Below the pieces are notes generated by a model that worked only from the letters and a program-made list of their open reading frames with translations, was not told the origin of the DNA and made no database searches. From positions 5,166,565 to 5,230,564 of the forward strand of contig JAKZAN010000001.1 of the NCBI GenBank assembly GCA_023053545.1: DNA of 64,000 bases, in the 5' to 3' direction. Every line of letters starts with the position of its first letter. Position 1 is the stretch's first letter. The position numbers and the translations under genes are program-made. Shown here piece after piece: positions 2,995 through 54,400 of the stretch. This stretch comes from Lepidurus packardi (lineage: Eukaryota > Arthropoda > Branchiopoda > Notostraca > Triopsidae).

Positions 2995-3000
2995 TCTAGA

Positions 3001-3699
3001 ATGAACGCCGAAAAGTTAGCGAAATTACAAGCCCAAGTCCGCATTGGTGGACCTGGTACCGCTCGTAGGAAGAAGAAGGTGATCCACCGTACCGCCACCA
3101 CAGACGACAAGAAGCTCCAGAGCTCCTTGAAAAAACTGTCTGTAAATAATATCCCCGGCATCGAGGAAGTTAACATGTTCAAGGATGATGGCACCATTAT
3201 CCATTTCAACAATCCTAAAGTACAAGCTTCGTTGGCCGCTAACACATTTGCCATTACTGGTCACGCGGAACATAAACGTAATTTTTATTTCCTTTTTAAG
3301 AAACGTTTAAGCGCGTTTTGTATCCTTGCTCGCATCCTTAACAATAAAATTCTTTATTTCTAGCAATGACGGACATGTTGCCCAGCATCTTGAACCAGTT
3401 GCCGACCGAAAGTTTGGCTCAGTTGAAGGAAAGAATAGTCAACGCAGGAGCAAGCGCGGCCGGAAATGCTGCAGTTACAGCTGCTGCTGATGATGATGAC
3501 GTCCCCGACCTGGTTGAAAATTTCGATGAAGCATCGAAAGGAGAAGCACCTGCTGGTAAATAAATCTCGCACAGCTTCACTTGAAAGCAACTTAGTGAGA
3601 CAGTTTAATGACTCTTTTTCCTCTTCCCTAGTCGTGACCCAAGAAGAAGCGAAAGAAAACAAGGCCGAGATCAAGCCAGAGGAAAAGAAGGAAGAGTAA
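3001..3699 (+). CDS. BTF3: Nascent polypeptide-associated complex beta subunit (BTF3, fly bicaudal)
   Basis: Ribosome-associated beta subunit of NAC, which with NAC alpha shields nascent chains and controls ER targeting. Three exons join in frame: 3001-3277, 3364-3555, 3632-3699, giving 178 residues, slightly longer than usual. The N-terminus starts [17 protein letters not shown] and has the ribosome-binding RRKKK patch at about residues 24-28. The NAC domain follows ([13 protein letters not shown], then INF-like [10 protein letters not shown]), and the segment [12 protein letters not shown] is diagnostic of BTF3. The tail is acidic, then Lys/Glu-rich. The start ATG follows a probable 5' UTR splice acceptor. 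NASP diverges upstream and the class C receptor gene converges downstream. Confidence 0.95.
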
Positions 3700-4117: not shown

Positions 4118-7100
4118 TTACATACGGCCAGAGTATTGAGGATGTCTTGCCAATTGATGGCAAGACAACTCTGAGGGTGAAAAGTACCTCGAAGGTACGC
4201 TTTTCAACGTTTCTTGATTCTTTAGTGCATTAGAAATGAAAGAACTATCAGGTGCAGACATGACTTGCTTCTTTTGCATACGGGTTAACGTAATCATCTT
4301 AGGAATGAAAATCACCGTGATACTCAACCAGCCTAACATGGTCATCAAGGCGCATGTAGCCGTATCTCGGTATTCCAACGGTGCTAAGCCTACCGTGAGT
4401 CCCCAAGCTAGAATTAAAACGGTAGCAAGTAGACTGTTGAGTAGAATCCATTGGGCTTCGCGATGGTTCCGGCGCACGTTTCGCAGGTATACCGCATATA
4501 AAGTAGTGACTGTGGCGAGGATGAATATGTACAAAAACAGAAGGGGCAAATGGGAACGCGGCAAAGAACAGTCGTAATCAGCGACATTGACAAAATGCCC
4601 ACTGAGCCCTGCTTGTACGGCCAGAACAAAGAGTAGAGTCAAATAAAGGGGGGATTGAGGAACACTTCCTCCTAAGCCAGCTACCACTAAACCTCGCAAG
4701 TGCATAAGTTTGATAAGCATGGTGCCGTGGCACAACGCTAAAGATAACGGAGGAATAAATAGCTTCAATTGACAAATCATATAGTTAGGGGGTACTACAT
4801 ACAAAGTAATGCTACAAAGCTCTAAAATTACTCCTAGTAAAAGGATCAGACCCATGCCCTGAAGCGTACCGTTCATAGTACCATCGTAAAAGCGGATACC
4901 TACAAGGATGAGTATGTAAATCGCTCCCAAGACTCCTGTAGCTGCAATCGCTACTATTGCAGCAGCCCAAGTTCGGCTCATAAATAATTCGGGAATCACA
5001 TGGCGAGTAGTAGGGATTATCAACGAAGGCGGTATACTGAAACTAAAACCAGGCGCGGGTAAGGGAACAGTTGCATTCGGTTTCAAACTTAGCGGGTCAA
5101 CTGTTTCCGTGATCTCTTCATAGGTGACCACAGTCGTCGCTTCGATTGTAGAATTCGCATTCGCATGTTCTTCCGCACTAAAAATGGAAACAATACCGTT
5201 TTATAAAAGCTCCTCTAGTCCCAAACTAAATGTCTAAAGTGTTAATGTTACTCTTTCTTTAAGTGAACTTCAGGTTCTTCTTCTTCGACAAAGGCAAACG
5301 GCTGTACTGGAGACAAGGCAGGGCTGTTAAATTGGGAGAAGAACCATCGCCCTTGAGTGTTGTAGCCAGTCATGGCCGCCAAAACTAATCCTTCATCGTC
5401 CGAATACCAAGCTACCTGAAGTAAGTTAACAATGTCGGTTGTTTTATGACGAGGTCTTCGTATTTGTAACTAAATTTTAGTCTAAACACGTGTAGAATTC
5501 GTCTTTTATACGTTATCTCTAGGGGAATAGGAATGAGTCAAAACTTACTGGTTGTACGTCGCCGGTAGCCGCTGAAAGGCGCTTGACGAGGTACCGGTTG
5601 GTTACCAACCGGCCTGACGGGGTGAAATGTAGCGAGTTTCCTTCGAGTTCTCTCGGGGATGAGGCTGGTTTCGTGGCAGCATTGCTAGGGAGGCTGAGTT
5701 GCATGAGAGATTTGAGGACATGTTGAGGGAGATGATGGTCGAGGTCTGAGCAATGGGTAGCGTCTGCAGAGGCTGGAGCGTTAGTTTGGCAAGTCAATTC
5801 GATGAGGTGAAAAGCGGCACCCAAAGCTGAAACCGCTTGGACTACGTGGGCAATTTCGGCGTTTCGATTCGGACCCGGCATGCCTCGGTCTTCCAGATAA
5901 GTCGCTAAACCAGCCAGTTCGGGCATGTGGGGCTCGATGACAAAACAGTGCGTATTGATAGCTAGGGACCATTCGGCCATTTCTTTGTTGTCTAAACTGC
6001 CTAAACTACCGAGCAACCAGCAAACGGTGGTATCCGAGCTCACTTGCATCAACGAAGGCATTATTAACCTGACATCATCCGGTTCCAGTAAAATAGCCAC
6101 GCAAGTATCCTATGAAAGGTCCATGATTAAGTAGGTCGTTAAAGTGCCGTTTGGGATCGTTTGACTATATAACAGTCTCGACGAAAAAAAAAAATAAATT
6201 GACAAACTGCTTGACCACTTTTCGTAAAAAAAACATGCTCTTTAAATTTAGCCTAGCTAGGCAAAATTCTTTTTATCCCAACTTTTTCCGTGTTTGGGAG
6301 GCTTTAGAAAATTGTTCTCGGAACACCCATTTCCGGCAATAAAATACAGCCTAATAAGCGCCAAGAAGACCTTTTTAGCTGAACTCTTATTTGAGCTGTT
6401 GAATGAGCAAACATTTTGTCAAGCTTCGCAGGCAATTTAGGAAACAAAAAGAAAAAGTGTTTGTTTTACTTGCGCAGTGGAAAATTGGGATAGTATCGCT
6501 GTCCAATTTTGGTCGGCTTTCATGAGCTGGCTGCTGAGAATACTCAAATCCAGTTTTTCTGCAGCCGTTTCCGCTTCGCTTATAGCGTGGGGACAAGAAC
6601 TCAGGATGTGCAACTGAGCTTTTTTCAAGCTTTTTGCTACTGCTAATGTCGCCTGAAAAAGACCATAAGAATGGTTGTCATTCATAACCTTTACAAGGTA
6701 CACAGTAGAAAGTCTTGGCTTACGCGGGATATCGATGCTACGTTCGGCGCCGCCGAGAAAACGTTGTTTGTGATATTCGTTTGTTGTCGTTGTGTGTGTA
6801 GTAACATTTCGGCGGCTCGAGGTGAAGCTACCAAAAAAGGAACGTTTTGTGTGCGTAGTAATTTGGCTGCTTGATTAAGAATCTCAGGATCGCCAAGTCC
6901 AACCACACCTTAAATACCCAAAGAACGCACAAGATTTACTAATGTGGTAATTGGGAAACTTTTCAATTTTTCATTTACTATTTATCTATTTTTAGGCTGT
7001 AAAATTCCGTATAGGATACCAATACTTCTTTTTTATAATATGAACCCGAAATATTATATTAAAAGACAGTTAGGTGCAATGTGTTATTAACATTTGAAAG

Positions 7101-12689: not shown

Positions 12690-14268
<1,579 letters not shown>

Positions 14269-19343: not shown

Positions 19344-20814
19344 CTAAAGAAGGGTTTTCCTACTTAAAACACCAAATTGGGAGTGACTACTATACTTAAT
19401 GTACGCTGCAGCACCCTTGCGTTCTCTGGCGGCTTTTAGTAGGTGTTGAAGCATAAACTTCATTGTGGGCTTTATGCTGTCGAATGGGTACTCTGCGCGA
19501 TACGTACAGGCATAGGTCCATTCAAATTGACCCGTAAGCAATTTTGCTAAATATAGAGCTGCTGCTGCTTGCAAAGAACTACTAACCCCACAGCTTCGGA
19601 TAGAAGGCTGTATGACGTCTAGGAGGCAATTGCATGTGTGCACAAACTAAAATAGACACAAAGTTAATACGTTAGGAAGGAAATAAGAAGTATGGCTTGC
19701 CTCATCTGGTACTTCCGGGAAGACCTGAAGGCAGTGCCGTAGGAAAAGTAGAAGATGGGCGAGGGAAGTTAAATGAAGATCTCGATGGCTCAAGATTTGT
19801 TGTTCCATGAGCAAAATATCACTAGCGGTATATGCACCGGTGCTTAAAGTTGACAAGCGGTAGACGTTCAAGATGACATTATCCTCGAACTTGACGGCAA
19901 TCCAAAGACACGTAGCACCCAGAAGTTGTAGTTTTGTAGGGGTGATCCGATGTATTAACAGGTACCGGTCCAGGATCTTGATGGACAGGCAATAAGTATC
20001 GGATACTGTTCCCCTAAAATGGGCCTAGAAGACTAGAGTGTCTTTACTTAATTTCTAAGTGTGTATTATTATTTTTGGGGGAAAGGTGAAGTATTTACCT
20101 GTACTTGCAGTAGCCATTCAGCGACGATAGAGCGCATCTTTGGTGTTATGCCGGAAGTAGAGAGGTAAACGGCATCCTTCTCTTTCATCCACAGATACCG
20201 CCTAACGTCCTATAATAGTTAACTGAAGTGGGAATTGAATTTTTTTCAAGGTTAAATAATATTACTTCAGCATAAAATGAAGTTCCAGTACCGTCTTGGT
20301 TGTAAATACAGAGCGGTGGAGGTGAGGCATCAGCGTGGGCAATCACGATATTGGGCAGAAGAGATGGCTGGCGGCTCTGATTCCAGGCCTTACTTACTGA
20401 GCCTCGGGATCTTGCTGACCAGACGCGGCGTGGCTTTAACCTCGCAAGAGCGGTGGCGAATTGGTGGAACGGCTTCTAATAGGGCTGCTGGGGATTTGGA
20501 ACGTCGCTTACTGCTTGGGACCCCCTTGCGCCTTGTTTTGCGCCCTTTCCTCATCTATGGTGTCAAACGTTAGTGAAAGCATACAATGAATCTTCACAAG
20601 ACTTACGGATGCAGGGGTTTTGATACGGTTTTTTGCAAATACGGGAACCGGCTTCAAGTGAAAGTTATCATTGTTTTGAGCTTGAGAGGTTGATGGAGGA
20701 GGAGCTAGACGCACAGGGTAATTAAGGTCCGCTAGCGGTCGGCGAAGCTAGTCATAATGATTATTAAAACGGGATCGAACCAACGAAGAAAAAACCTACC
20801 TTCTCGCTCGCCAT
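19344..20814 (-). CDS. Mitotic (A/B-type) cyclin, divergent
   Basis: Regulatory partner of a cyclin-dependent kinase at G2/M. Seven exons join in frame: 20814-20800, 20747-20607, 20554-20441, 20388-20266, 20209-20099, 20024-19701, 19646-19344, giving 376 residues. The start is a five-codon exon (MASEK). The N-terminus has RRPLADLN, resembling a destruction box (RxxL...N) but one residue shorter than the classic form, then a basic stretch RKGRKTRRKG. The first cyclin box begins YAEDVRRYLW, with MRSIVAEWLLQVQ and LQLLGATCLWIAVKFED; the second box includes SSLQAAAALYLAK and ends AAAYIKYSS. Order and spacing fit A/B cyclins, with B slightly favoured. The final intron (19700-19647) has a GC donor. 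The 52-base intron 20440-20389 is chosen to keep frame and is the least certain junction. Confidence 0.8.
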
Positions 20815-24188: not shown

Positions 24189-27100
24189 ATGAACGACCGA
24201 CTCGTACGCGCTGAGCGGGCGGTAGAAGAAAATCCGTATAACTTGGAAGCATGGAGTTTCCTTATTCGCGATGCCCAACAGAGAAGGATTGAAGATGTGC
24301 GAAATGTTTACGAACGGCTAGTTACTGCTTTCCCTACATCAGGCCGTTACTGGAAAATCTACATCGAGCAAGAGGTAAGGCGAGCGCGACTAGATGACAC
24401 AAGAATTATAATAAAATGTGAAAAATAAATTATTTACTCATGTTTTAATTATTTTTTCTAGATGAAAGCCAGGAACTATGACAGGGTTGAGAAGGTATGT
24501 TCATCAAGTCTTTACTGTATCTTCATTTTGTACCCAAGTACTGCAGTTTATCTATGGAGGTTAATTCAGTGCAAGTTCGGACTATATAGTACAATGCCCT
24601 ATGCCCTTGGATTTGGTATGGCTTTGAATAAAGGCACCTATACCAAAAACCGCCTTTTGTCTTTGCCATGATTTATTTAAAAATATAAAGCGTATATACC
24701 CATAAAGGCTGCCTAGGAAACAAAAATCAGCAGTTTCACTTTGTCATTTTGGATTCGTTTGTTAATTTTACGGAATTTTGGAACTAGAAAAAAAGATTAC
24801 TGCGTTTTAGATTCTTATTAGAAACGTCCCTTGCATGTTTCTAACCGCCAAATGTAATATTTGAACTTTGGCGTTTTTCGTCTTACTCTTCTTCCAGTTA
24901 TTCCCGCGCTGCTTAATCAAAGTCTTACACATCGACTTGTGGAAACTTTACCTAACTTACATTAAAGAAGGCAAAGCGTCTCTTCCGAACCACAAGTACG
25001 AATAAAACGGCATTTTTTTCTCCCCAAAACAACTCTTGGTCTTACTATACGCATTCCTAGGGAGAAAATGGCTCAAGCTTATGACTTTGCTTTGGATAAG
25101 ATTGGTCTCGACGTCAATTCCTATCCAATTTGGAATGACTATGTCAGTTTCCTTAAAGGAGTAGAAGCTATAGGATCCTACGCCGAAAACCAGAAGATTA
25201 GCGCCATTCGCAAAGTAAAGAACGAGTTTTGGAACTATTTGCCATTAAATTGTTCTCTCGTATAGGTCTATCAACGCGGGGTGGTCACTCCTATTCTAAG
25301 CATTGAACAGTTATGGAAAGATTACTTGTCCTTTGAACAAAGTATCAATCCTATTATCGCCGAGAAGATGTCCTTAGAACGGTCGAGGGATTATATGAAT
25401 GCCCGGCGAGTTGCCAAAGAACTGGAAGCTGTCACTCGAGGAATTAATCGAACTTTGCCCAGCACACCTCCTATGGGCCACCCTGAAGAAGCGCGGCAAG
25501 TGGAACTCTGGAAAAAGTACCTGCATTGGGAAAAGAGCAATCCATTGCACACGGAAGATATGGGCGTGGTCATCAAGCGAGTCATGTTCGCTTACGAGCA
25601 ATGCTTACTATGTTTGGGACACCATCCTGATGTTTGGTACGAAGCTGCTCTCTTTCTTGAACAAAGCGCCAAGGTGTTACAGGAAAAAGGAGTAAGTTTT
25701 AAAGTGTTCAAATTTATTGTAATGACCTCTAATTTCTTTTTCCGTTCAAATTATAGGATGTAACAGGAGCCAAAGCGTGTAATGAGGACGTGGCTGCCAT
25801 GTATGAACGTGCAATTACAGGTCCTTTGAAAAGCAATCAGTTGCTTTACTTTGCCTACGCGGATTATGAGGAAAGTCGACTGAAACACGAGAAAGCAAAC
25901 CAGATCTATAGCAAATTCATTGACCAGCCAGACGTAGATCCTACGCTGGTAATACAAGTGTTCGGTTGTACGAATCCTCTAAAAAAAATTTTTTTTAGGC
26001 GTATGTGCAATACATGCGATTTGCAAGGAGAGCTGAAGGGATCAAAGCGGCCAGGTCAGTTTTTAAGAAAGCGCGGGAAGATTCACGTTCAAGCCATGAA
26101 GTCTATACAGCTGCAGCTTTGATGGAATATATGTGTAGCAAAGACAAGACGATAGCCTTCAAAATTTTTGAATTGGGATTGAAGAAGTTTAGCGATAATG
26201 CGGACTATTTATCTGGCTACGTCGATTATCTGTCTCATCTTAACGGTAAATTAAAACACTTTTTTCCCTTTTCAATTTTATTTTTTATTTTTTTAAAATT
26301 TGTTTTTGTCTCGCAAAAGAGGATAACAACACCAGGGTCTTATTTGAGAGGATACTGACATCAACCACGCTAGCTCCCGAGCATTCATTGTAAGTTAACT
26401 AGTTCTTATAGAAAAAATAATCTTATTCTTTTTTTTTTTTGCGTAGGCAAATTTGGGATAAGTTCTTAGAATTCGAGTCTAGTGTCGGCGATCTGAACAG
26501 CATTGTCAAAGTGGAGAAGAGAAGAGCAGGGGTATTGGAAAAGGTAATAATTATTTTTGCTTTTTATTAAGACTATTTCTGGAATTTATTTTAGTTACAA
26601 GAATTTGAAGGGAAGGAAACCGCCCTGTTGGTTGATCGTTATAAGTTTGGAAATTTGTTCCCTTGTTCTGCTGCGGATCTTAGGTATTTCTCCTTGAATG
26701 TATTAAATTCTAGTGCTATTTATATTTTTTTAAAATCATGTTTCGTTATTATATCATTATTTTTTAAAAATATATTTCTTTATTTTATTTTTTTTCATTA
26801 TATTGGGTTATTTTATAATTTTTTATTTTAATATTATAGAGCGATTGGGTATTACGATATTCAGAAAGCTGGTGATCCAAAAGAACCTGTTGTGGAAGCA
26901 GTGGCTGCTCCCACAGCCACCTTTTTTGCGTCAGATGCTGCTCTACCGAAACCTGATTTTTCGCAAATGGTTCCTTTTAAACCGAAACAGCAATGGGCTC
27001 CAGGCGAACATTCTGTTCCGGGTTAGTATTTTAAACATTCGCGTTGAAATGATTTAAAGTTTTATTTTTTTTTATTTTTAGGTGGTATGTTTCCAATGCC

Positions 27101-33919: not shown

Positions 33920-36900
33920 ATGGGTTCTAAGAGAAATTCGGGCCATTTCAAGAGGAAGAAAAAAAATCCCCGTGAGTACCTCCGTATTCAACGTGAAAAA
34001 CTTGAACGGATAATTGTAGAGGAGAAAAAACAGTATAACCAGGTTAGTGATTAGTGACTTACTGAGTACTAGTCAATCCCTTGAAATTCATAACGCTAAC
34101 TCCATTCTCCTAGGCGAACGGCATTACTGAACAAAGTAGCCCTGTGGCTGAACGAAGTAATGATGAAGATTTATTATCTGACGAAATTACTTCGGCAAGT
34201 TTTGACCATCAGGCGGAAACTGAAGCAGTTCAGCTGAATATAGAGAAAGGTGCTTTCAGTCAACCTGAGTTGTTGCGTGGGGTGAAACTTGAACGGATAA
34301 TTGTAGATGAGAAAAAACAGTATAGCCAGGTGAGTGATTTTAGTGACTAGTACTAGTCAATCCCATGAAATTCATAACGCTAACTCCATTATCCTAGGCG
34401 AACGCCATTACTGAACAAAGTAGCCCTGTGGCTGAACGAAGTAATGATGAAGATTTATTATCTGACGAAATTACTTCTGCAAGTTTTGACCAGGCGGAAA
34501 CTGAAGCAGTTCAGCTGAATATAGAGGAAGCTGCTTTCAGTCAACCTGAGTTGTTGCGTGGGGTGAAAGGCAGAAGAATAGTTGACTTAGGGCATGTCGT
34601 CCAGCTTACAGCACAAGTATTCTTGACTCATGGCGAATCATGCAAAGGTAGGTTAATTTTTCGCAGAGAATTGAGGAAAGGTTCTTTCACCGCATTATTT
34701 CTACGGTGCGATGCATGTCAAACTGAGTGGTATATTGATTCAGAGAGAGGCTTCAGAAAAATGACTAAGCCGAAGAAAAGGATGGCTACATCTGATGACG
34801 AAGAGGATATAATTTTGCCACCTAACAAGAAATTTTTATCCATAAACACTCTAATGACTTGGGGATTGGTAGCGGTGGGTGCTGGGCATCATGTTTTAGA
34901 GGAACTTTGCTCAGTCATTAGTGTACCTTGCATGACTAAAAAAACATTTTGTAAGAAGGAGCACTCCGTTGGTGAAATTTGGCACAAAGAAGTAGAAGAA
35001 GCAACGCGTGAAGCGATGGAAGAAGAGATAGAAGCTGCTATAGCTGCAGGCGACGTTGATGACGAAGGGTTCCCACTGATCACCGTTATCGGTGACGGTG
35101 GATGGTCCCAACGAAGTCACGGAACCCGCTATACAGCAAAATCTGGCGTGGGTGTGCTAATTGGTGCATATACAAACAAAGTACTATACGTTGACACTCG
35201 CAACAAGTTTTGTTCGGTTTGTACCAGAGCTGCCCGTTTACAACAAGCGCCAACACCCCATCAATGTTTTAAAAACTGGGACGGTCCCTCCACAGCTATG
35301 GAAGCGGACATCCTGAGCAAAGGAATAAGAGAATGTGAAAAAAAGTATAAGGTACGTATTTCTCATTTTATTGGGGACGGAGATTCTTCGACTTTCAATA
35401 AAATCTTGGCAACTACGCCTAGAAGTCAGAAGCTTCCCAAAAAAATCGAATGCGCCAATCACGTAATCAAGAATTACACAAAGAAGCTTTACTTGATTCA
35501 GGCCAAAAACATCAAGTACAGAAGGGTACTCGTGAAGTCCCTTATTTCGAAACTTACACGTGCTGCCCGAGGTGCGATAAAAAGAAATGCGCGAAATAAG
35601 GGTACCGCTGAGGACCTCTGCAAGGCCTTGGACAATGGTCCGAAGCATTACTTACTTGGGGACCACCGATCTTGCGAGAAACCCTTGCCCGGGAAGAAGG
35701 GCTGTGAGTTTGCTGGACAAAACAAGATAAGCAAGATAGATCCGAACCTCTACCGTGAAGTTTGTGCAGCACTTGATTACGTGAGAAAGAAAAGTCACAA
35801 TTTGTTACAAGAGGTGACTACAAACGCAGCAGAGAGGTTCATGTCTAGTGTTGCCAAAATTGTTGGCGGAAAGCAAATTCTTCGCTCGCAAAGGGGAGCG
35901 TACACGCACCGCTGCTATGGTGCTGTGTTGAATTTCCTTTATGGGAGAGGATTTCATGTTCCCATTTTAAAGAAATATAAAGTTACTTCTCCTGTGCTTG
36001 ACGCATTTGAGTTAAAACACCTTGCAAGCACCAGAGCAGGAAGAGAGCGTTATTCTAGATCGTCTCAAGAACGGCAAAACACAGCAGTTTCTGCTGATGT
36101 TGTTCAGGGTGGAGAGCCTTCTGGAGGTTTGGACCTTCATTACGGAAACACAGACTTGGACCCTGATTCTCTTGAAAGAGAAGCAGATCGAATACGTCAT
36201 CTTCTGCAGCTTACATCAGAAGAAATTGTGTCACTGGAAGAAAAGACCCGCGCCCAGGGAAGTTGCCCTGAGTGGATAGAAGGTAGACGAAACAGAGTAA
36301 CTGCCTCGTTATTCGGGAAGGTTTGTAAATTGCGGGATTCTACTCCTCGCAAAAATGTTTTGAAAGCAATTATGCTCCCGTCCAGCTGGACTTCAGAAGC
36401 TACAGAGTACGGCAAGTGTAAAGAACCTGAAGCGAGGAAAGCGTACGAAAACTTAAAAAAAGTTACTGTCCAACCTTCCGGGCTATGGGTACACCCTGAA
36501 TACGGCTACTTGGGTGCATCTCCCGATGGTGTAGTCGAAAAGGATGGCTTGATTGAGATCAAGTGCCCAAGCAGTGCAAAAAACGCGGAAAACCTTTATG
36601 ACTTCGTTATTTCCGAAAAGAAACAGTCAATTGGACTACTGCCTGGCGAAAACCGCAAGCTAAGGATCAACAAGAACCACCACTACTACTACCAAATTCA
36701 AGGACAACTTGAAGTTACTGGTAGACAGTGGTGTGATTTTGTTGTATGGTGTCCAAATGACATGCATGTCGAAAGAATCAAACGGGATAGAGACTTTTGG
36801 AGCAAAGACATGTTTCCCAAACTGAAACGCTTCTTTGACGACAGCTTCCTACCTGAACTTGCGGACTCACGGCTACAACGAAGCGAAAATCCTCGCGAGC

Positions 36901-36992
36901 CCCAGTTTGTGTTAGACGCTATCTCACGAAGAACGAAAGTCCAGGCCAATAGACAAAAAAAGGGAAAGGAAAACAGAAAAAAAAGAAAATGA
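33920..36992 (+). CDS. Transposon-type protein: Mutator-like DDE region fused to YqaJ nuclease
   Basis: Three exons join in phase 0: 33920-34042, 34114-34329, 34398-36992, giving 977 residues. The start exon is MGSKRNSGHFKRKKKNPREY. A CDAC zinc pair lies near residue 220. The RNase H-like region carries IGDGGWSQ (Asp about 346), a CSVC...HQC knuckle, FIGDGDSSTFNKI (Asp about 440) and NAAERF (Glu about 593), the order expected of Mutator-like DDE transposases. The C-terminal YqaJ exonuclease region has GRRNRVTAS (about 742), ASPDGV (about 821), LIEIKCP (about 831) and YYYQIQGQL. Such fusions are scattered through invertebrate genomes as repeated or domesticated genes. Both catalytic sets look intact and there is no frameshift, so it may be a young copy. 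I found no terminal inverted repeats around it. The exon/intron duplication is described separately. An AATAAA lies at 37082. Confidence 0.8.
33998..34571 (+). repeat. 287-base tandem duplication of exon plus intron
   Basis: The unit beginning AAACTTGAACGGATAATTG at 33998 recurs at 34285, so the period is 287 bases. Each copy has the end of one exon, a whole intron of about 70 bases and most of the next exon. Copies differ at only scattered bases and a 3-base indel (CAT present in copy 1, absent in copy 2). Splice sites remain intact in both. Confidence 0.92.
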
Positions 36993-41379: not shown

Positions 41380-44300
41380 ATGATTTCCTCCTTCTGCCGA
41401 GTCACTGGCAACAGTCGCAACTTGCCTAAACCCAATTACTTTCCTCTATTACCTCCTATTTCCCCCGCGGAGGCTCGACGCATTTGCAAACTCACAGGCA
41501 AATCGCAATCTTGGGAGGATCACCACTACGTCCCGGTGATAGAATTCGGCAAGGAAAGCAAAGCTTTATTGACCCACTGTCACATCACGCAAAACTCCGA
41601 GGGCAACGAAATTCACAGCTATGTGCCGAGCGATGATTGCTGGCAACAAACAACGCGTCGTTCCAAGGAAGAGCCGCGAGGGGAAGGTTGCCGCATTACG
41701 TCTAAATACCAAGTGAATTCGGACTATGTTTATGTTTCTCCCGTCCTTGACCCTCCTTCGCCCACTTCGTCCAAAATAGCTCACCAAGAATGGAAAGAAT
41801 TGCAAGCGGTTATGAAGCAAAATACCGCCTCGCCCAAGAACACTTCTCATCCCGAGCAGGAGACTCGCTACGTCTATCCGTTATCGGACGACGGCATAAG
41901 CCTCGTCCTTCCCACTGCCTTAGAGGAAGCTGTTCGCAAGGGAGACATTGACAGCCTGTTGCTCTCCAAAGCTGGTGACATGTCCTTACTACGTCTCCGT
42001 AACGGCAAAACTGTGAGTCTTCCGATGCGGCAGCTGTCGCAGGAAGAAATTGCGACAGAGGAACCGTTCCTTTACCAAGGAGGCGGGCAAGACTCGCAAG
42101 TTTTGAAGAAACAAAAGAAAATCCAAGAGTACAAGAAGCGGAAAATGTCTGATTCATTGTTGGGTTGCCGACGGCGATTCATTGACTTCAGCAACAATGA
42201 ACAAATGTCTCAATCATCCCTAAAGGAGGAAGAGGATATCAACCTTGATCAACTGCGTTGGTCGCAGATTGACTGGAGTGCCCGCGTAGCATTACTAGAT
42301 GCAGGTCATCGGTCAGCTGCCAATATGCTTGTCTTTGGTCCGGACTGGCGAGATTTGGTGTATCCACATCCAGAAAAATGGGACTGGGAAGCGTTCTCAC
42401 AATTAGTTCTAGATGATTCGGTTCCATTGCCACCAACTTATTCCTCGACCGAGCTAACGCATGTGAATCTTGCCGAATTGAATCCGGGTCCATTTGTAAA
42501 CCAGCCGCTTATTACTAACGACACTGTAGGGTTTGAAGCTGTTCCTGTGTTTGAAACCATTTTAGCCCCTTTTCAGCCGCAAGTGGAGCTTGATCTACTG
42601 CAAGCTCTTAACCGTACGTCGGCGACAGTAAGTCAAGTGGACGATATCAAGAGTCTGTTCCAGAATGTGGAATCTGCTATGTTATTGCCATTTATTCACG
42701 AAGTTGACAACCTTGTCAACATTCTGAGCACCGGCACTCCCGGAGCGCTGGTGGAAGATACACGTCGTGGTGACGTCCGATTTCACCCCACAAACTCCTC
42801 TGAAGAAGTCGTTAAGCTCGGTCAGGCAGAGAACAGCAGAGTCATTGAAGGATTATTGGTGGCCATGGGCGAAGAGGAGAGATTCGTCATGGGTCGTCAG
42901 GTCCAACAAATAGATGGTGCAAAGGGATTTGTTGCGGGACGGGCAGTGCTTAATCATGTCAACAAGCTTGAGTTTCAGCCAGGAATTGTTGTACAAACGC
43001 CAGACACGCCAGGTTTTATCCCCGGGCTTACGTTCCCGTCTCCTACACATGGACAGACGTTCTGCCCGGGTGAAATCTTAACCAGTGGCGATGGTCAAAG
43101 TAAATTCCATTCTGGTCAAGCCTTGCAAACCCTACATGGGCCCAAGTTTACCAGTGGGTTCACTATACCTACGACCGAAGGACCGAAATTTGTCGCTGGG
43201 CACGTCTGCCACGACAAGCTTTTATCAGGGCAAGTCTTAAAGACACAGCAAGGCCCCGAGTTTATTACAGGACAAACTTACGATTCTCCACAGGGAGTTC
43301 GGTTTGTACCTGGTCGCGTTGTGCCCACGCCGAATGGTTTTAACTTTGTTCCGGGACAAAAAGTAAAAAATGCAGAGGGGGAAGCTCACTTCGCACCCGG
43401 ATATTGTTTAGAAACACCAGAAGGACCAGTCTTCGTACCAGGATTCTCATTATCTGCATCTGATGGACAAGATAAAGTGGAATTTACAGCAGGATTGGTT
43501 AAAGAAGGGTGTTTTACCCCGGGCCTTCTGACCGAGAAGACGGGTCAGTTTGTGGTAGGTAAGATTCCTCGGAATCCCGACGGATCAGGGTCGGCATTCG
43601 TACCCGGCAAGATTGATCCCGAATCGCGCAAATTCCAAGCGTCCACTAGCTTGGAAGACGTCCAAGTCATGGAATTCGAAGGCTGCATAAGCCAGCACTG
43701 GAATACTTGGCCAGTGAGCGGATCCTCATTAACAGCCATGCCCTTCGTGAAACCGGAAATGGGCTACATGAAGCAGGACGAACGCGCTGTCAAGTTCTAT
43801 CGTACAGAAAAGAACCCAGAAGGCCAAGACGCAGAAATCAAAATTGTCAGCGGACAGCTCTGGAATCTAGAAGGCGAAGAGACTCCCCGCTTTATTCCGG
43901 GTACATACAAGAAAAAACCATAGAAAACATTCGAAATCCTAATTACCTTCCCGGATTTCAAACTAGGCAAACTCATTGAAACCGCTATTGGGACGCGGTT
44001 CGTAAGTGGCCAGCTGGTGCGCACCCAAAGGGGAGAGCAATTTACCCCGGGAGTTGTCATTGACTCCAGGGATAATCCTCCCAAGTATTCGCCTAAGTTT
44101 ATACCAGGTAAACTTGGCGGCATTCAGGCAACACAAAAATTACTCTCCTCGGTTAACTTTTGGTCGTTTTAATAGGACAGCTCATTGAAACTAAGGATGG
44201 AAAGAGATTCTGTCCTGGTCAGGTTTTGCCACCCACCGGCAAGAAAGGTGGTCCTCCTCGGTTTGTCGTGGGTAATATCTTGCAAACTAAGTATGGGGCC

Positions 44301-47300
44301 ACCTTCGTACCCTCGCAGGTGATGTACACAGACCAAGGTTCTCGCCTAATACCGGGAAACTTGCACATGACAAGTCAAGGTCCAAGGTTTGTCCCTGCCG
44401 TATTGGAAGATATGGGCAACGGCGTGAAATTCCGTGAAGGTACCGTCGTTGAGACGCCTGAAGGACCTCGTTTCTTGGCATCCGACCTGGAGGAGAATGC
44501 AGAAGGTGCCCTGGAATTCACCGTACAAGGTTTTGAGGTAACGCCTGAAGAGTTGCGACTAATCACGGCTTATCCTTTTGCTGCTTTGCATTTTCCACTT
44601 ACCGATGATGAACCTCTCATCGACTCGCGAATGCTAAGACAAATGGCAGCTGCCGGAGCGGCTGTCGAACGTTACACGGCCCAACACTTGCACGATGTCA
44701 AGATTTCTTGTCCCCAAGATTCCAATCCCGCCATTTTAGGCGCTAACGCCTTCAATGTCACGGAGCCAGATCTAAAAAGTTTGGTAATCAAAGCCAGCAA
44801 GGCTGGTCACAAAAATAATAAGTCCACGGGAGCGGATGGGACCACGAACCCAGGAGTAGAAACGACAGGTCCATCCCAACATGAGTTTGACAAGAAGACC
44901 GAAACGGCTTCAATTTTACATTCCAACGCGAATGCAAAAACTTCTTTCTCTCAGACTGGTTTAAATAGCTCTGCTCGACATGTACCAGCAAAGCAAGACC
45001 CTAATGATGGGCAGTTTTCAGACGGAGGTGTCGAGGCACAGACAGGAGACTGTCAAGCTGTTACAGTAGCCCTTGTAGGAAACTTGATGAGTTCTGGGAG
45101 TGAGCAGAGTAATGAGGTGTCTGCAAAAGCTAACAAAAGCGGAGATCCAAACGGTGACGTACACCAAGATTCCGTGGCTCAAAACCAGCCTGGCACGCTA
45201 GGGGTTGAACAGAACGTAGGCCAAACTGAAGACATTAACTGTTCGACAGTTGACAACCTGACTCTTGTACCTTACAGCCAAACTTCTCTCTCTAATTCGA
45301 AAGGCCTAACTGCTCCCCAAACCTCCCAAGTTGACGTGCTTGGGTTGAACCAAGAGGAATCCAACTCTGTAAGGGATGAGGTTTTCAATTCAAGTAAGCA
45401 ATCCACGGCTACAGGGGCTGACAGCGATCATTTACTTTCAAGCTACCAACATATTAAGAACCAAGGCACAAAGAATGTGTCACCCTTGGATCCGTTAGGG
45501 GATAGTGACCTCAGGCAACTTGGAAATGGAAGTCATAAGTTGTTGCACAACAGTAGTTCTAATGAAAGTTCCTCAGTTGGTAAGACCACCTCGTTGACGA
45601 GTTTTGCTTCCACTGACTTGATCGACCAAAACCGAAACGATGCGTGTAACACCTGTGGTTCCGCAAGAAAGGCGGACCAAAATGGTATCAGGTTGGACAA
45701 TGACTTTGAAGAAGTAGATGGTTCCTCTCTTGGGAATTCAAGTAGCCAGGTTGGAGTTTTTGACTTTAAGAACCAAGTTCAACAAGGTCAACGCCTAACT
45801 GCGGAAGCTGATCAAGCAAACGGTAAGGTCGAACTAGGAAATTCTTCTACGCCAGGACTGCCAGACAGTTTCACTTTGCACGACCAGCAACAAGGCACGT
45901 CGAATCTTCATAAGTCGCAAAATGCGTCAAGACAAATCCACTACGAAAGCGAAACCCCCGACGGTGCAGCCAAAAATGATGACCTGTGCCAGGACCCATC
46001 AAAGCTTTCAGGAGCTGGGCAAGCAGGGCACAATTTACTGACACATGCATTAGACAGTGTCCCTTGTCCTGACAGATGTCAAGGCATATCTCTTGCGAAT
46101 TTGGAACTGTCATGTGGGAGTAATAAAGCAGCAGTATCAGCTGCTAATCAATTACAGTTGACTTCGAGCCCAAAAGAACCTATCCTTACTAATCGAAATA
46201 GTCAAGAATACCTTAATCCAACAAATAAACAGCAATCTTCTTTCAGAGATACGCAAGGTATGGCTAATGCATCGGAATCTGCTACAATGTCTAGCCTAGA
46301 AAGTCCGCTCTGTCTGAAAGAAACCTCAAAAGAATGCAAAAGGCTGGCAGGGAATCAAGTCCTTCCAAAAGAATCCAATTGTGTGTCGTCAGAAGGAGGG
46401 TTAGGATCTACAGCTCATGACAGTAATGCAGAGCTAGACTTCCAGTCCAGTACGACAGATCGGCCTGGTTATTCTTCAGGGCAGAGCCATAGCACTGTGC
46501 TAATGACCTCAGAACTAACGGCAAATAAAGAGCCCCAGGCTATTAACCGAGTCCGACAACCAACTTGTAGCTCAGTAGAATTAGCTGCAAGTGGATACGA
46601 CAGCCAGAACGGTCCAGAACAAGATGCAGACGACAATGGCTTTCGCGAAACTTTCGCGGAGCCTCAAATTGGATCAACGCCAAACACTACACCATTATCA
46701 ATCTCGAACGCATCGCAACACCAAGGAGACAATTCAGCTCTGGTGACGCAGATCGATGCGTCAAACTGTCGCACACCTGCTGAACCTCTCGATAGAAGTT
46801 CAGGTGGCCTTCATACGGCCCTCCCATATTCCACCCTAACGTCGGTAGACGGGAACAATGAAGCAGATGACAGAAAAGGCGAGTTGTTTGTGTGTGACAA
46901 AAAACCTGCCAAGAATGTCGCGTTGAAAGGAAACAAAAATAGCACATCCATCAACAGCCAGCTCGGAGCTGGACGAAGTGACGGAGCAGTCGTAAAGGAA
47001 TGTCAAACTAACCAGTTCTTAAATGACAAGAATAATCTTCCTACGAGCAGCCACGCGAACCAACTAGACAGAGAAATGCCGAATGATCTACGTAAAAGTT
47101 TCTCTGCGGCCAGAAGAACAATCGGGTCAGCAGACCGGATAGGCTTAGCTGCTACTGGCCGTGACGACGGCATAATGCTCCATCAAACACGCAATGATTC
47201 AATCGCAGGAACCTTTGCAGCATCCAAGATCAATTCAGAAGGAGGATCCCCACACTGGCACGCTTCCAATGAAATTTTTAATGGCGATGGAGTTGTGAAA

Positions 47301-50300
47301 GATGGAGAACCATGTGTCAGGAGCAACAAAAAAGGACACGACACTGGACCAGGAATGCTACATACTGACAGTAGTCTGGCGTTAGAAACAGAATCTGAGC
47401 TTCCCCACGAGCACACAAGTATGCACGAAGGAGGTACCCAGATTGCCAGTTCCTTACGTAAAGGTTACCAAGACGACGAGCAAGTTCCGGGCAACGGTTC
47501 AAGAGGAACAATGGGAACAGACTTTAACGATTATGATTCTAACAGCCAAGACAAAAGCCAACGTGAGAAAAACCGCATAGAAAAATCAGTAGAGCAGGGT
47601 AGTGGGGAAGAAAACACCAGTAATAATCCACAAGAATCGCTGAGTCTCGACAAGGAATACGACGAGAATTCTATAAACTACCTTAACGCAGTCATACTCA
47701 ATAACAAGCACGGTATAGGTTCTAATGACGACCGTACTAACTCCAATTCATTGTTGAAACACAGGGGAAAAGGGAATTCGGATCAAGACAATCTTAGCGA
47801 CAAGTTGGAGTACGTTTCTTCGCCAACAGATTCTGTACACAATGTACCAGGGAACGGCACTGGAGAGCCGGTTTCAGATGGAGCCGCTTTCAGAGAAGAA
47901 GACATCAAAGGATTTCATACTTCAGGTTTAACGACCGAGTCAACAACCATGAATCTGTCACGAACGGACTCCGAAGACCTAAGCGAAAAGAAAGCGCAAC
48001 TTCATTTGTTGTCGAAATTGTTGAACAAGGACGACCCAAACGACGCGTCTGAAGAAAGAGAATTTAAAGACCCATTTGGGACTCGCAAAAGAAAGGACAA
48101 GAAACCTTACTTTGACGCAGACGATGACAGGGTTATGCCCGCTCTGGGTTTAAAAGAATCCCTGATCAGCTCAACAACCGACTATGCCAACTTGGCGGTC
48201 CAGGCGTTTTTCAAGCGCATCAAATCCGACCTGGATTGTGTTGAAGACGATCCTTTCATTCGGGGCACGTTAAAGCAAGCCGAAGGCTTAGCAGTTGCCA
48301 TCGCGCGTCCCGACTTGGCTGAAAACGTTCGACAGTTGCTGGACATATTAAAAAATTCGCAAGGGGATGAAGAAATGGTGCGCCTGATTGCTAATATTTT
48401 ATCTTTGAAGGAGCTAGCGGAAAACAACACAGAATTGGCTGAGTTGCTACAGAAAGTAGAGACGAAACCAGAGTTGATTGCCCATGACCAGAACTTGAAG
48501 AATAACTTGGCTGACGCTATCGCCGACGTACAAAATCACATGGCGGGTGACCTTCGTAGTTCAATCGCGAGTAGAAACAAACCCCCTTCTGAACTGCCAA
48601 CTGGTCATGTAGGCCAAGGAACAAATAACACGAAATCCCACTTATCTGGTCAGATCAGCTGCGATGAAGTGTCCCAACATACAAACGGTGTAGTAGACGC
48701 CTCTTTATCCAAACCTGGAAAAGAATATGATAGATCAGCATCATTGCAGTCCAGGCAACAATTGCAGTCAGCTAACATAACGGGCGGTGAAAGTCAAAAT
48801 AAATCTCTAACGTCATCCAGATCGAAAGGACTAACAACTGACAGCGTTAATAAAGCCCGACTCGCAGATTCGAATAATAGCAAATTTACTAAGCAGGGAA
48901 ATTCGGTTACGGAAGATGGTCAAGGTGGATCGAGTAAAATAAACCTTGTAGGAAAGACACCTTCTGAAACAACAGATCAAACTGCTGAACAGAAAGCAAG
49001 CCTGGAAAACCAATCTAGGTCGGATGTTGCTCTCGGTGGTAGACAGACATCAGAACTAGGTTCCCAGGGTACACCAGCTGCATCTAATGGTAAAGGAATT
49101 ACTGAGAATAAGGGTCTTCTTGACTTGACTGGGAATACAGTCGGAGATCAATCGAATGGCTTTATAACTGTTTCTGAATCCTTCATAGACTGTTCGGTCC
49201 GAGACCTTACTCCAACGTCTGCTTCGCAATCATTAACTAATATCAGCGGTGGTCCTAATCAGAGCCTTAGCGTCGTAGGGAGTAAACTAGAAGATGCAAG
49301 TGGTAGCTTAGACAAGAGTCATCCAGGACGCAAGAACAAGACCCATACACACGAAGTGGGAAACCTCAGTAAAGACTCCATGAGCAATGAATTCAACCAA
49401 AATTTACGCGATCTAGAAAGTAAACTAGGGAACGGAAGCACTGCCGCAGATATCGCTCTTTCACAGCGCTCGAGCAAAGCACATCGACAATATGACGAAA
49501 GCCTTGACAAAAGACTCACCGATAGTGAATCAAAACAAAACATACACGATCCAGAACTTAAATCAGAAAATAAAAGTGATAACGTAGACAAGACCCATTC
49601 GCAAAGCACGAATTATGAAACAGACGATGGGGAGAACTTGTCAGCTAAGTCTGTTCTCAGAACAAAAAGACTTGACCAAGAAGTCTTCGCGGAGCAAAAC
49701 ACTTCACTCGGAGCAGAAGAGAACAAAAGTAGCCCTAAAAGACAAGGTGATGAAAATGAGTCCGGTCAATTGTCAAGTGGTAGCGGTCAGAATCAAGGTG
49801 GGGGAGAACACGGAAATAATGAGTTGGAAGACATACCCATTTTATGGAGGCCTCCACGTACCCCGAAGCGAATCTCCGTTACAAGTCGACCTGCGTCTGT
49901 TCGTTACTCTTCCAGTGAACTGTTGAATGACCGTAACAGTGTCGGGGATGATGAGAACGTCACTGCCGGACCCACTAGGAAAACGAGTTGCAGGAACACA
50001 GTTTCTAACTTTACCAACGCGGGTGACCGCAAGGCCTTACCCGAAGGTGAACCCTCTCTTCCACCCGTTATAACCTCCGCAAAAGATATCCCTAAAGAAA
50101 TTATAGACACGCTTCGCTACTCGACAGATGAGGCTAAGAAGGAGCTTTACGTAGAGCAAATCCTCGACGCTCTTGCTCGCACTCAGGATGAGCTCCATCC
50201 GTCCTCAGAGGGGGAAGAAGGCAACGGCGATGAAGACGAGTTTACTGAACAAAGTTACAAAAGGCGTCATGCTAGATTCACGCATCGTCGCCGCAGTTCT

Positions 50301-50837
50301 GCTTGTGTGATCCTTAAAGATTTCTTAGAAACTATAGTACCGCGGGACGCTGCTCGCGGAGTCCTTATTGGTGACATAGATTACATGGTAATTGATGAAG
50401 ACGGTGTCAGGTACTTCGAATCTGCCAGCGGGTTTGCTAGTCGTAGAAGTAGTCGTTATGACATTCGTTTATCCCGGGCTGGTTCCAGCGAGTTCAGTTC
50501 AGGTCCCTGGCCTTGGGCTGACACTGCTCCTTCTAGTGCGTCACGTAGTCGACGCTGCAGCGTAGACGATCAGATGCGCAAAGCGCGCCTCTCTAGGTCG
50601 GACTTGAAAAGTAATGCGTCCCAACCGGTTACCCGACAAAGTAGTGCAGAAAGACTGAACGCGCGTCGCAGTCGGTACTCCATGCCTTACTCCCGCAGTC
50701 CCAGCACCAGCGCCATTACTTCGCTCTCAGCCGTGTCAAGTCGGCGAAGCAGCGTCGGTCTAGCCGATGACCAACAGAGGCGTAAGCGTAAGGTGGGCGT
50801 ACTAGGTTTAGGCACGGGCTTTCGCGTAATTCAATAA
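41380..50837 (+). CDS. Giant F-x-P-G repeat protein of unknown family
   Basis: Three exons join in phase 1: 41380-43900, 43967-44107, 44176-50837, giving 3107 residues. I do not recognise the protein. Residues about 1-490 are soluble-looking, with a Lys/Arg-rich patch near 250. From about 495 to 995 there are roughly 20 degenerate repeats of 17-22 residues, consensus F-x-P-G-x-x-x-x-T-x-x-G, for example GVRFVPGRVVPTPNGFNF and GQLIETKDGKRFCPGQ. Both introns interrupt the Gly codon of an FIPG motif, so the middle exon is a repeat module. Residues about 1070-2160 are Asn/Ser/Asp/Gln-rich and probably disordered. A helical, conserved-looking block follows (about 2160-2350, with DLAENVRQLLDILKN). 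After more low complexity comes an Arg/Ser-rich C-terminus (RRSS motifs). It sits 0.6 kb upstream of Unc-89 on the same strand and may be a muscle protein or an alternative Unc-89 part; both are inference. The ATG at 41380 could also lie inside a longer first exon. Confidence 0.75.
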
Positions 50838-51416: not shown

Positions 51417-54400
51417 ATGTATCCTATACCTTGCAGACGACCCATATCGCAAACCTGGGACGAGGAGTTAGACATAACAATGGGAGACGAAGCGCTTTTG
51501 CTATTGGATAATAGCGCAGCACTACGCAAGCTGGCTGTCAGACCAAAGAAAAAGCACGACTCGCGGAAAAGTTCCAGACCTGATTCTTCGGTGTCTTTAG
51601 ACAGCCAAGATTTATTGTAATCCAGAAGTTCTTAATTAAGAAGAATTTGTACCTATTTTACGATTTTTTTCCAGGCTAACAAACGAAACGATTAACGTCA
51701 AGGAAAAGTACAAAGGTGATTTCCTTACCAGGCGATCTAGAAGTTACGTAGTCGACACGAAGGACCCACGGATCAAACGAGAGTACAAGAAATTTATCGA
51801 CCTTCTTCGTTATTAAATAAGTGATTGTAATAGAGCTGTGGTAAGAGAATTGATCGAGACCGAGGACGAGTTCATCAAGGATATGCAACACGTGGTCGAA
51901 CGCTACTTCAATCACATGGAAAGCTCGTCGGCTATGCCTAGGCACTTGCAAGATCACCGAGATGACTTGTTTGGTCCCTTTAAGAAAATCTACGAGTTCC
52001 ATCAGAGTGTCCTTAACGAGGGACTCAAATACTACGCGGATGAACCTGTTATGCTGGGACGTACCTTTCTGCGGCTCGTACGTATTCACAGTTCCGTTCA
52101 GAATTCGTCAGTCATTCCTTTCTTTTCTTCCCAGGAACGTGATTTCGACAAACACGTCAAATACTGCGAGCTGGAACCTCTGGCGCAAGCCTTGCTCTCG
52201 GAAGAAGAAGAACTCCGCGAGTATTTTGACGTAAGTATGTCCCTCCACTTCTAGTTCTTTCATAAAAACTGGTCGATAATTTACCGTTAATCAGTTGACC
52301 AAAGCCTAGCGTGGCAGCCGTCCCGTAGCTCATGAGCTATGGACCGAAAAAAATAAGAAAATAGGGTAAAAAGACGTCGTTAACAGCATGTTGTAGACAT
52401 CGGAATCTTGGCAGCAATAATCTTCAATGTCACTTACGGATGTATCGTGAGTCTCACACTTTTGGCGCCAACCCTGGACTCTATCTAATAAAAACCCGAA
52501 CTTCCCCATTCCTTATAATCACCGTTATCCAAACCTTGGTCTACCTTAAAGCCAAGGTCTGGTAGAAAAACTCTCGAATTGCTTAACCTTTGTAAGCGAA
52601 CCTGCTAATGGGGTTTTCACATTCTGGAGCAATGTCGACTTGGCCGCCGAGCCGCTCATGCATACACCCGGTAAGAAAAGCCCATCATCCACAGGTCCGA
52701 TTCCTATAGAGAGGTATATATACAGAGCCAGTATGGAAGGGCAGGATGCCCGAGTTCGTGTTGCGATCTTTTGGGAAGGGGCTCTGGGAGCCTAAATTTA
52801 GCTTTGACAGGGCCTTCCGACCCAATTTAGCCATCGCAAAGCGACACCCTTCTTTCCGTCCGTTGCTGACTGCCGAAGCATACGCTCCTGTGAGTTGTCC
52901 GACACCGTTGACTTGTCAAGTTCCCGGTACGAAGCGGGAAGCCGAAACACGGAAGATTGAAGTTCCTCACGGACAGAGCCCAGTGGCTTTCGATCGAGTG
53001 CTTGGCGAATTCTGACGTTGAACCCTGTAAGTGTTTGCGAGTTTCCCAGGATCCACCCCAAACAAACCAGCCAGCGTTTCTTTAAAAAGTGTCTTGCTTG
53101 GCTGTTATTTCTGTCTGCTTCGCTATTCCATTTTTTTCACCAAACAGCTCGTGCTTTGAGTCCTTGAAGACGGAATAATTAAACCTGGTTCCGTAAATTG
53201 ATCTATTTCCGTGGAGAGATCAGGTAGCAAGTCGTGAAATCCTACATAAATTTAGCCAGCTACAGTTACGGACTGGAAGGCCGTTTGGTGATGAGCCAAT
53301 AGTAACCCTCCCTCCCTCTCCTCTTTCTCCACCGTCCCACCCAGCCATCGAAAACGCGAGCAAGAAGCAGCAATCTTTAGACGCTGACTAAATTTAACGC
53401 AGAAACAAGAAAAACAACGCCTTACTTTCTACATTTAGCCTAATTTTTAAAAAGATAGTTTTAGACCACGTTTGCAGACAGTGCTTCACCATTCTTCGCT
53501 CTGCACAGTAGACGATATAACTCAAAAGCTTGTTTGTTGCTATTTCGTACAGGATTACAGCGTCCGGACTGGTGACGATAAGCTACTATCGGATCATCTG
53601 AAACTTCCTATTCAACGCATTAACGACTACCAACTGCTTCTGGAAGTAACAATTATGACCACATATGCTTTTGGAGTTACCGAATGAGAGGAACTAATGT
53701 AGACATGTTTTGAAACTAGGAATTGGTCACATACTCGAGTAAGTTGAACGAGAACACCACCGATCTACAAAAGGCCCATGAGTTGATGCTGAGTATCCCT
53801 CAGCGACACTCTGACTCAAAGTTTACTGCCAATATCAGTGGGTATCAAGGCAATATCCATAATCTTGGCCGACTCCTACGACACGTATGTATAGGAAACT
53901 CTTTTTCTACATTTTGGCACAGCGCTATTTGCAGTCTTTTCTTTGCCATGGGTACGATTAAGACATGTTAGACATGTCAACATGTAGACCGAAAGAAAAA
54001 GGGGAGTCTGGTCTATTACGGTAGGTGACGGAACGGTAGCAATTCAAGATTTTTTAACGAAACAGAGTAAAGACATGACTGCCATGTCATGAACAGCCAT
54101 GACTGGACTTATTCCTGGAAGATATTCTCAGAATAACTTAATAAAGAAATCCTATTGCTGTTGTGTGCTTAGTGCTTACATAGTTCCGGGTCATTTAACG
54201 GACGTTAGCGATCGTTCATGTGATCACAGCGGAATATCGGAATACGTATGCAAGCAGAAATGGAGAAATGACTTTGTCTGTACAACTTTTTCTTGGCTCT
54301 CCTTACGAGGTACACGTCGTTTCGGGTGGGTGTTGTAACAGCTGCGTCTCGCTAAACTATTGCGAAATGCACTGGTAGTGTGACTCAGCTTACCAGTTTA

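Follow-up and report, generated by a model that had tools for sequence, protein, structure and literature searches.

The 64,000-nt stretch of Lepidurus packardi DNA analyzed here (the window) contains a real gene, present in one copy, that encodes a protein of 3,107 residues (ca. 337 kDa), referred to below as the giant. We give a probability of about 40% to the reading that this is an old single-copy arthropod gene for a cytosolic scaffold or tether, separate from Unc-89 and consisting of a stalk of β repeats and a largely disordered tail of ca. 2,000 residues. In this arrangement, a stalk would come after an N-terminal region (residues 1–480) and would be built from about 26 repeats of 14 residues, each providing one β strand of ca. 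11 residues (GPRFVPGQVVET) and a tight turn (P-E-G), to give an antiparallel β meander. The tail after the stalk would be disordered for most of its ca. 2,000 residues, apart from a single foldable island, and its end is basic. The giant would then hold partners together over a long reach, with the stalk being stiff or spring-like and the tail serving as a flexible linker.

When the three exons (Table 1) were joined, the resulting 9,324 nt comprised 3,107 codons and a stop without any internal stop codon, which confirms the three-exon model with long in-frame exons that had been proposed. An in-frame stop is located directly upstream of the ATG of exon 1. The codon usage of the whole protein agreed with that of an Unc-89 sample at 0.87 in frame, compared with 0.65–0.81 otherwise. 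Both introns have GT..AG borders and interrupt an F-I-P-G motif between the first and second bases of its Gly codon, as described in the original prediction; the chance of both introns lying at such a site was computed as 7 × 10−5, in a test framed after the introns were seen. The middle exon had been called a repeat cassette, and this description holds: the exon begins and ends in phase 1, carries three repeats, and its skipping would rejoin FIPG/Q in register.

Table 1 Features of the giant gene and the beginning of the neighboring gene (window coordinates).
Feature	Position	Strand	Description
Exon 1	41380..43900	+	ATG at 41380; N-terminal region 1–480, repeat block 1, and start of block 2; no Pfam match at E ≤ 1
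Repeat block 1	42871..43632	+	15 of 26 copies; Phe at residues 502–740
Repeat block 2	43879..44504	+	11 of 26 copies; spans both introns; Phe at residues 838–987
Intron 1	43901..43966	+	66 nt, GT..AG, phase 1 in Gly codon of FIPG
Exon 2	43967..44107	+	141 nt, 47 codons, symmetric phase 1-1; three repeats, Phe 852, 866, and 885; product without Pfam match at E ≤ 1
Intron 2	44108..44175	+	68 nt, GT..AG, phase 1 in Gly codon of FIPG
Exon 3	44176..50837	+	Remainder of repeat block 2 and entire tail through stop
Ser/Asn/Gly-rich tail	44784..48053	+	Residues 1091–2180; Ser 13%, Asn 9%, Gly 9%; predicted largely disordered
Leu/Ala-rich island	48114..48593	+	Residues 2201–2360; predicted more foldable
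Ser/Arg-rich C-terminus	50094..50834	+	Residues 2861–3107
AATAAA over the stop codon	50833..50838	+	Candidate poly(A) signal; hexamer common in the window (118 vs 79 expected)
First recognized Unc-89 exon	51437..51609	+	Recognized by its acceptor; outside the giant unless spliced to it

To define the repeat unit, we calculated the autocorrelation of residues 470–1010. Lag 14 gave z = 9.5, which was reached by none of 1000 shuffles, and lag 28 gave z = 3.6, which was reached by one of 1000. Among all lags tested (5–49), these two alone exceeded z 3. Therefore, the repeat unit is 14 residues. About 20 degenerate F-x-P-G repeats of 17–22 residues had been predicted; the repeats are real and 26 copies were accepted, while the predicted length was wrong. 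The F.PG motif occurs 13 times in the giant (shuffle mean, 0.4; shuffle maximum, 3). A profile seeded on the F.PG sites and iterated, with its threshold taken from shuffles, accepted 26 copies with Phe positions from 502 to 987, a number that is approximate since the profile was trained on its own hits. The consensus of these copies is F-[VI]-P-G-Q-[VL]-[VL]-E-T-P-[DE]-G-P-[RK], and the spacing between copies is exactly 14 residues in 14 of 25 steps. Phe1 (24/26), Gly4 (23/26), Gly12 (19/26), Pro3 (16/26), and Thr9 (12/26) are conserved, and positions 2, 6, and 7 are hydrophobic in 77–81% of the 26 copies. P-G is absent from several copies in exon 3, where Phe is retained.

At the DNA level, Tandem Repeats Finder detected no tandem repeats in 41380–50837, and a DNA repeat search of 42800–44600 found a single family of two copies of 23 nt. 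The mean pairwise identity among the 14-residue repeats was 0.27. At four-fold residues common to two copies, the third base agreed in 182 of 757 pairs (0.24), compared with 0.26 for unrelated codons of the giant. The saturation of synonymous sites together with the retention of Phe and Gly indicates that the array is old and is held by selection on the protein. The gene itself thus provides evidence that purifying selection has long acted on the giant.

Structure prediction of the repeats, which had been suggested as a check, yielded strand-after-strand models at low confidence. Two AlphaFold2 predictions were made with alignments built from the giant's own repeats, one with a query from exon 3 (4 rows) and the other with a query from exon 1 (5 rows). 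The mean confidences of the models were 57, 44, 42, 42, and 37 for the exon 3 query and 54, 52, 49, 46, and 37 for the exon 1 query. The best exon 3-query model placed strands at 26–35, 38–49, 52–63, 66–76, 81–91, and 94–104, and the best exon 1-query model at 88–99, 102–113, 116–126, and 132–142; the latter was poor in its middle (about residues 43–90 of 158) and disordered in part. Both best models, at their low confidence, thus have strands of ca. 11 residues that are ca. 14 residues apart. They weakly support one strand of ca. 11 residues per 14-residue repeat. The predicted fold, which is of low confidence, draws its chief support from the agreement between the two different query exons, whose alignments share repeats and are therefore not fully independent. 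Since the turn between the predicted strands is so short, neighboring strands would be antiparallel, and the array would form a β meander in which the P-G step falls within the strand and the turn is made by P-E-G.

The charge-hydropathy plot separated the regions of the giant. All 14 windows of the repeat region (residues 481–1080) were on the folded side, while 24 of 27 windows in residues 1081–2200 and 15 of 17 in residues 2361–3107 were on the disordered side. Residues 2201–2400 had three of four windows on the folded side and one on the disordered side. The N-terminal region (residues 1–480) had no known domain in the libraries searched and placed 5 of its 11 windows on the disordered side, so that a compact folded head is doubtful. 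The predicted run of more than 1000 Asn/Ser-rich residues in a single exon was recovered as residues 1091–2180, which lie inside exon 3. A possible cluster of kinase sites at the C-terminus was rejected; 12 RxxS/T motifs occur in residues 2771–3107 against a shuffle mean of 8.8, and this number was reached by 267 of 2000 shuffles, which is not significant.

A crude hydropathy scan of the giant detected no membrane-like stretch (highest 19-residue value, 0.99) and no signal-like N-terminus (at most −0.39). A cytosolic protein is therefore the simplest reading. This location is inferred, as are the scaffold function, the partners, and the tissue of the giant. The giant had been proposed to be an elastic or scaffolding protein. 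A scaffold-like build fits its anatomy because it has no signal or membrane stretch, its repeats are predicted, at low confidence, to form strands, and its tail is mostly on the disordered side; an elastic role is possible.

Searches of Pfam, PHROGs, NCBIfam, and PDB sequences yielded no convincing relative of the giant, in agreement with the original prediction that no named domain fits, and neither exon 1 nor exon 2 matched a Pfam model at E ≤ 1. The Pfam matches to DUF489 (E 0.0033 and 0.00016), MucB_RseB_C, and DnaG_DnaB_bind were all under their cut-offs and were judged to be chance, as were the PHROGs matches at 0.27 and 0.29, the NCBIfam match at 0.12, and the PDB matches to bL27 (0.64), LRRP (0.43), exportin-T (0.83), and receptor fusions (0.09–0.1). 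A PDB match to crotonase (0.00072) was also taken as chance. An array of the consensus gave eight sub-threshold rows in Pfam (best, 0.0036), three rows in NCBIfam (best, 0.0012), and eight rows in PDB, seven of which were RPB1 (best, 0.0012); all were rejected as compositional. In viral contigs and prokaryote genomes, which are non-animal and uninformative on arthropods, pattern matches were confirmed in 0/0, 0/4, 0/21, 0/15, and 0/71 cases. Among the open-licence papers listed by motif-string and topic searches, none was on such a protein, as judged by title and abstract start.

In the 108.6-Mb genome of the organism itself, the N-terminal region and the C-terminus each matched themselves alone, and the repeats matched this gene alone. 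Of nine matches to the repeat consensus, eight fell in the giant's gene, and the ninth, at another place, had E 0.78. By these searches, the giant is single-copy in its own genome, with no convincing paralogue. The repeat may be a new type, as judged against Pfam, PHROGs, NCBIfam, PDB sequences, and one animal genome, its own. The giant may nevertheless be widespread in arthropods and merely listed as 'uncharacterized'.

Several other features of the genome were recorded during these searches. It carries at least 150 R&R cuticle-protein matches, which mark it as that of an arthropod, and R&R genes form an extensive cluster at about 0.4–2.8 Mb of contig C3, where several equal scores perhaps reflect recent duplicates. 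A search for odorant-binding proteins gave no match, but its control gave none either, so that this result does not argue against a hexapod. Most hits fall on six large contigs. COX1-type genes that are open under the standard code were found on the small contigs C52, C214, and C43 and are probably from bacterial contaminants or symbionts. COX1 matches with internal TGA on C1, C2, C4, C5, C6, C21, and C38 are likely nuclear copies of mitochondrial DNA. One COX1 copy has a crustacean appearance.

Among known repeat systems, MORN proteins have short Gly- and aromatic-rich β repeats in series with a period of about 23. The giant resembles them in its short Gly- and aromatic-rich repeats in series, with its β structure being predicted, but its period is 14. 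The Pfam MORN model was not matched by exon 1, exon 2, or pieces of exon 3 (E ≤ 1) or by the consensus (E ≤ 10), and the Xin model had no match in the giant at E ≤ 1. The C-terminal heptads of RPB1 were the sole PDB matches of the consensus below E 0.1 (best, 0.0012); this likeness is a compositional one in Pro and Ser (14 = 2 × 7), and the giant's actual repeats do not match the heptads.

The giant had been placed beside Unc-89, and this holds. On the same strand, its neighbor has a RhoGEF match and I-set Ig domains in all five of its ORFs scanned within the window, and locus L011, which adjoins the window, adds two kinase stretches (from 661 and from 2590); therefore, the neighbor is Unc-89/obscurin. 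The stop codon of the giant lies 599 nt from the Unc-89 acceptor at 51437, and the two genes are arranged head-to-tail. SH3 is counted among the obscurin domains in PMC10129394. Near the Unc-89 RhoGEF (51437–52231 and upstream), no SH3 was found among the best candidates listed in the window, and the first exons of Unc-89 may lie elsewhere or be divergent.

Pfam matches were found in 5 of the 10 other ORFs scanned. The window contains a NAC-domain protein (2995–3360, +), a class C GPCR (4121–5200, −), a zinc finger (12693–13139), a cyclin (19650–20024, −), and a suppressor-of-forked-type HAT protein (25266–25760, +), all assigned by Pfam. An 864-codon ORF at 34398–36989 (+) carries a Mutator-like transposase and a YqaJ-type exonuclease domain and represents a mobile element.

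A sarcomeric role had been suggested from the position of the giant. As a special case of the scaffold reading, the giant would be co-regulated with Unc-89 and would provide elasticity or spacing at the M-line or Z-disc. The basis for this role is the head-to-tail adjacency to Unc-89 on the same strand, at 599 nt, and in animal genomes being neighbors is by itself weak evidence. The giant is like obscurin/Unc-89 and titin-like proteins in its size and adjoins Unc-89; however, Pfam scans found no Ig, Fn3, RhoGEF, kinase, or other known muscle domain in it. We regard a sarcomeric role as unlikely.

Elastin-like proteins are secreted and have VPG-type repeats with a period of about 5 residues. 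The V/I-P-G steps of the giant are similar, and its F-V-P-G segments could be elastin-like turns that make the array a disordered or β-spiral spring with no folded sheet. The P-G of the 13 strict copies and the low AlphaFold2 confidence are consistent with such a spring. However, the giant differs from elastin-like proteins in its 14-residue period, its conserved Phe, and, by the crude hydropathy scan, its lack of a secretion signal. Moreover, the conservation of Phe and Gly12, the hydrophobic positions 2, 6, and 7, and the strict step of 14 suggest a packed fold, and the exon 3 copies that lose P-G keep Phe. A spring of this kind is unlikely.

We also considered that the giant supplies Unc-89 with an alternative N-terminal half, with a donor in exon 3 spliced to 51437. 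According to a review (PMC12812942), Drosophila obscurin isoforms differ chiefly at the N-terminus. Between 49500 and 51436, six sites resemble donors with a score of 7 of 9; this cut-off fails to detect one of the giant gene's own two donors. The donor after 50410 (50408–50413, CAG/GTACTT) is the one of the six that is in the right phase, and its join to 51437 stays open. However, sites as good as this one arise by chance, joins from the other five run into a stop no more than 11 or 24 codons past the junction, and exon 3 reaches its own stop under AATAAA, although this hexamer is common. A shared transcript of this form is very unlikely. Least probable is an untranslated tail, with the gene being the repeat part alone and the open tail being accidental or from a different transcript; in the tail, codon usage resembles that of the Unc-89 sample as much on the antisense strand as in frame, so that the coding strand is not singled out (0.76 vs 0.75 antisense, and 0.75 vs 0.77), and the tail had no homologue in the libraries searched, but exon 3 has no in-frame stop in an open run of 2,219 codons, compared with 59–202 stops in each of the other five frames and a longest run of 185 codons in 200 base shuffles.

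The scaffold or tether reading can be taken further. The F-x-P-G repeat may be an undescribed β-meander module with one strand per repeat that forms the stiff or elastic stalk of a cytosolic arthropod giant that is expressed together with obscurin and works with it, and the symmetric exon would then add or remove three strands and tune the length of the stalk. This combined proposal is improbable as a whole. If the fold and the muscle role are true, arthropods would possess a giant structural protein that does not belong to the Ig/Fn3 titin-obscurin family. Its simple repeat would be suited to mechanical study, and the cassette exon would alter the stalk length stepwise. Even otherwise, the giant gene of L. 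packardi is a well-defined and evidently selected gene that lies outside the domain libraries searched.
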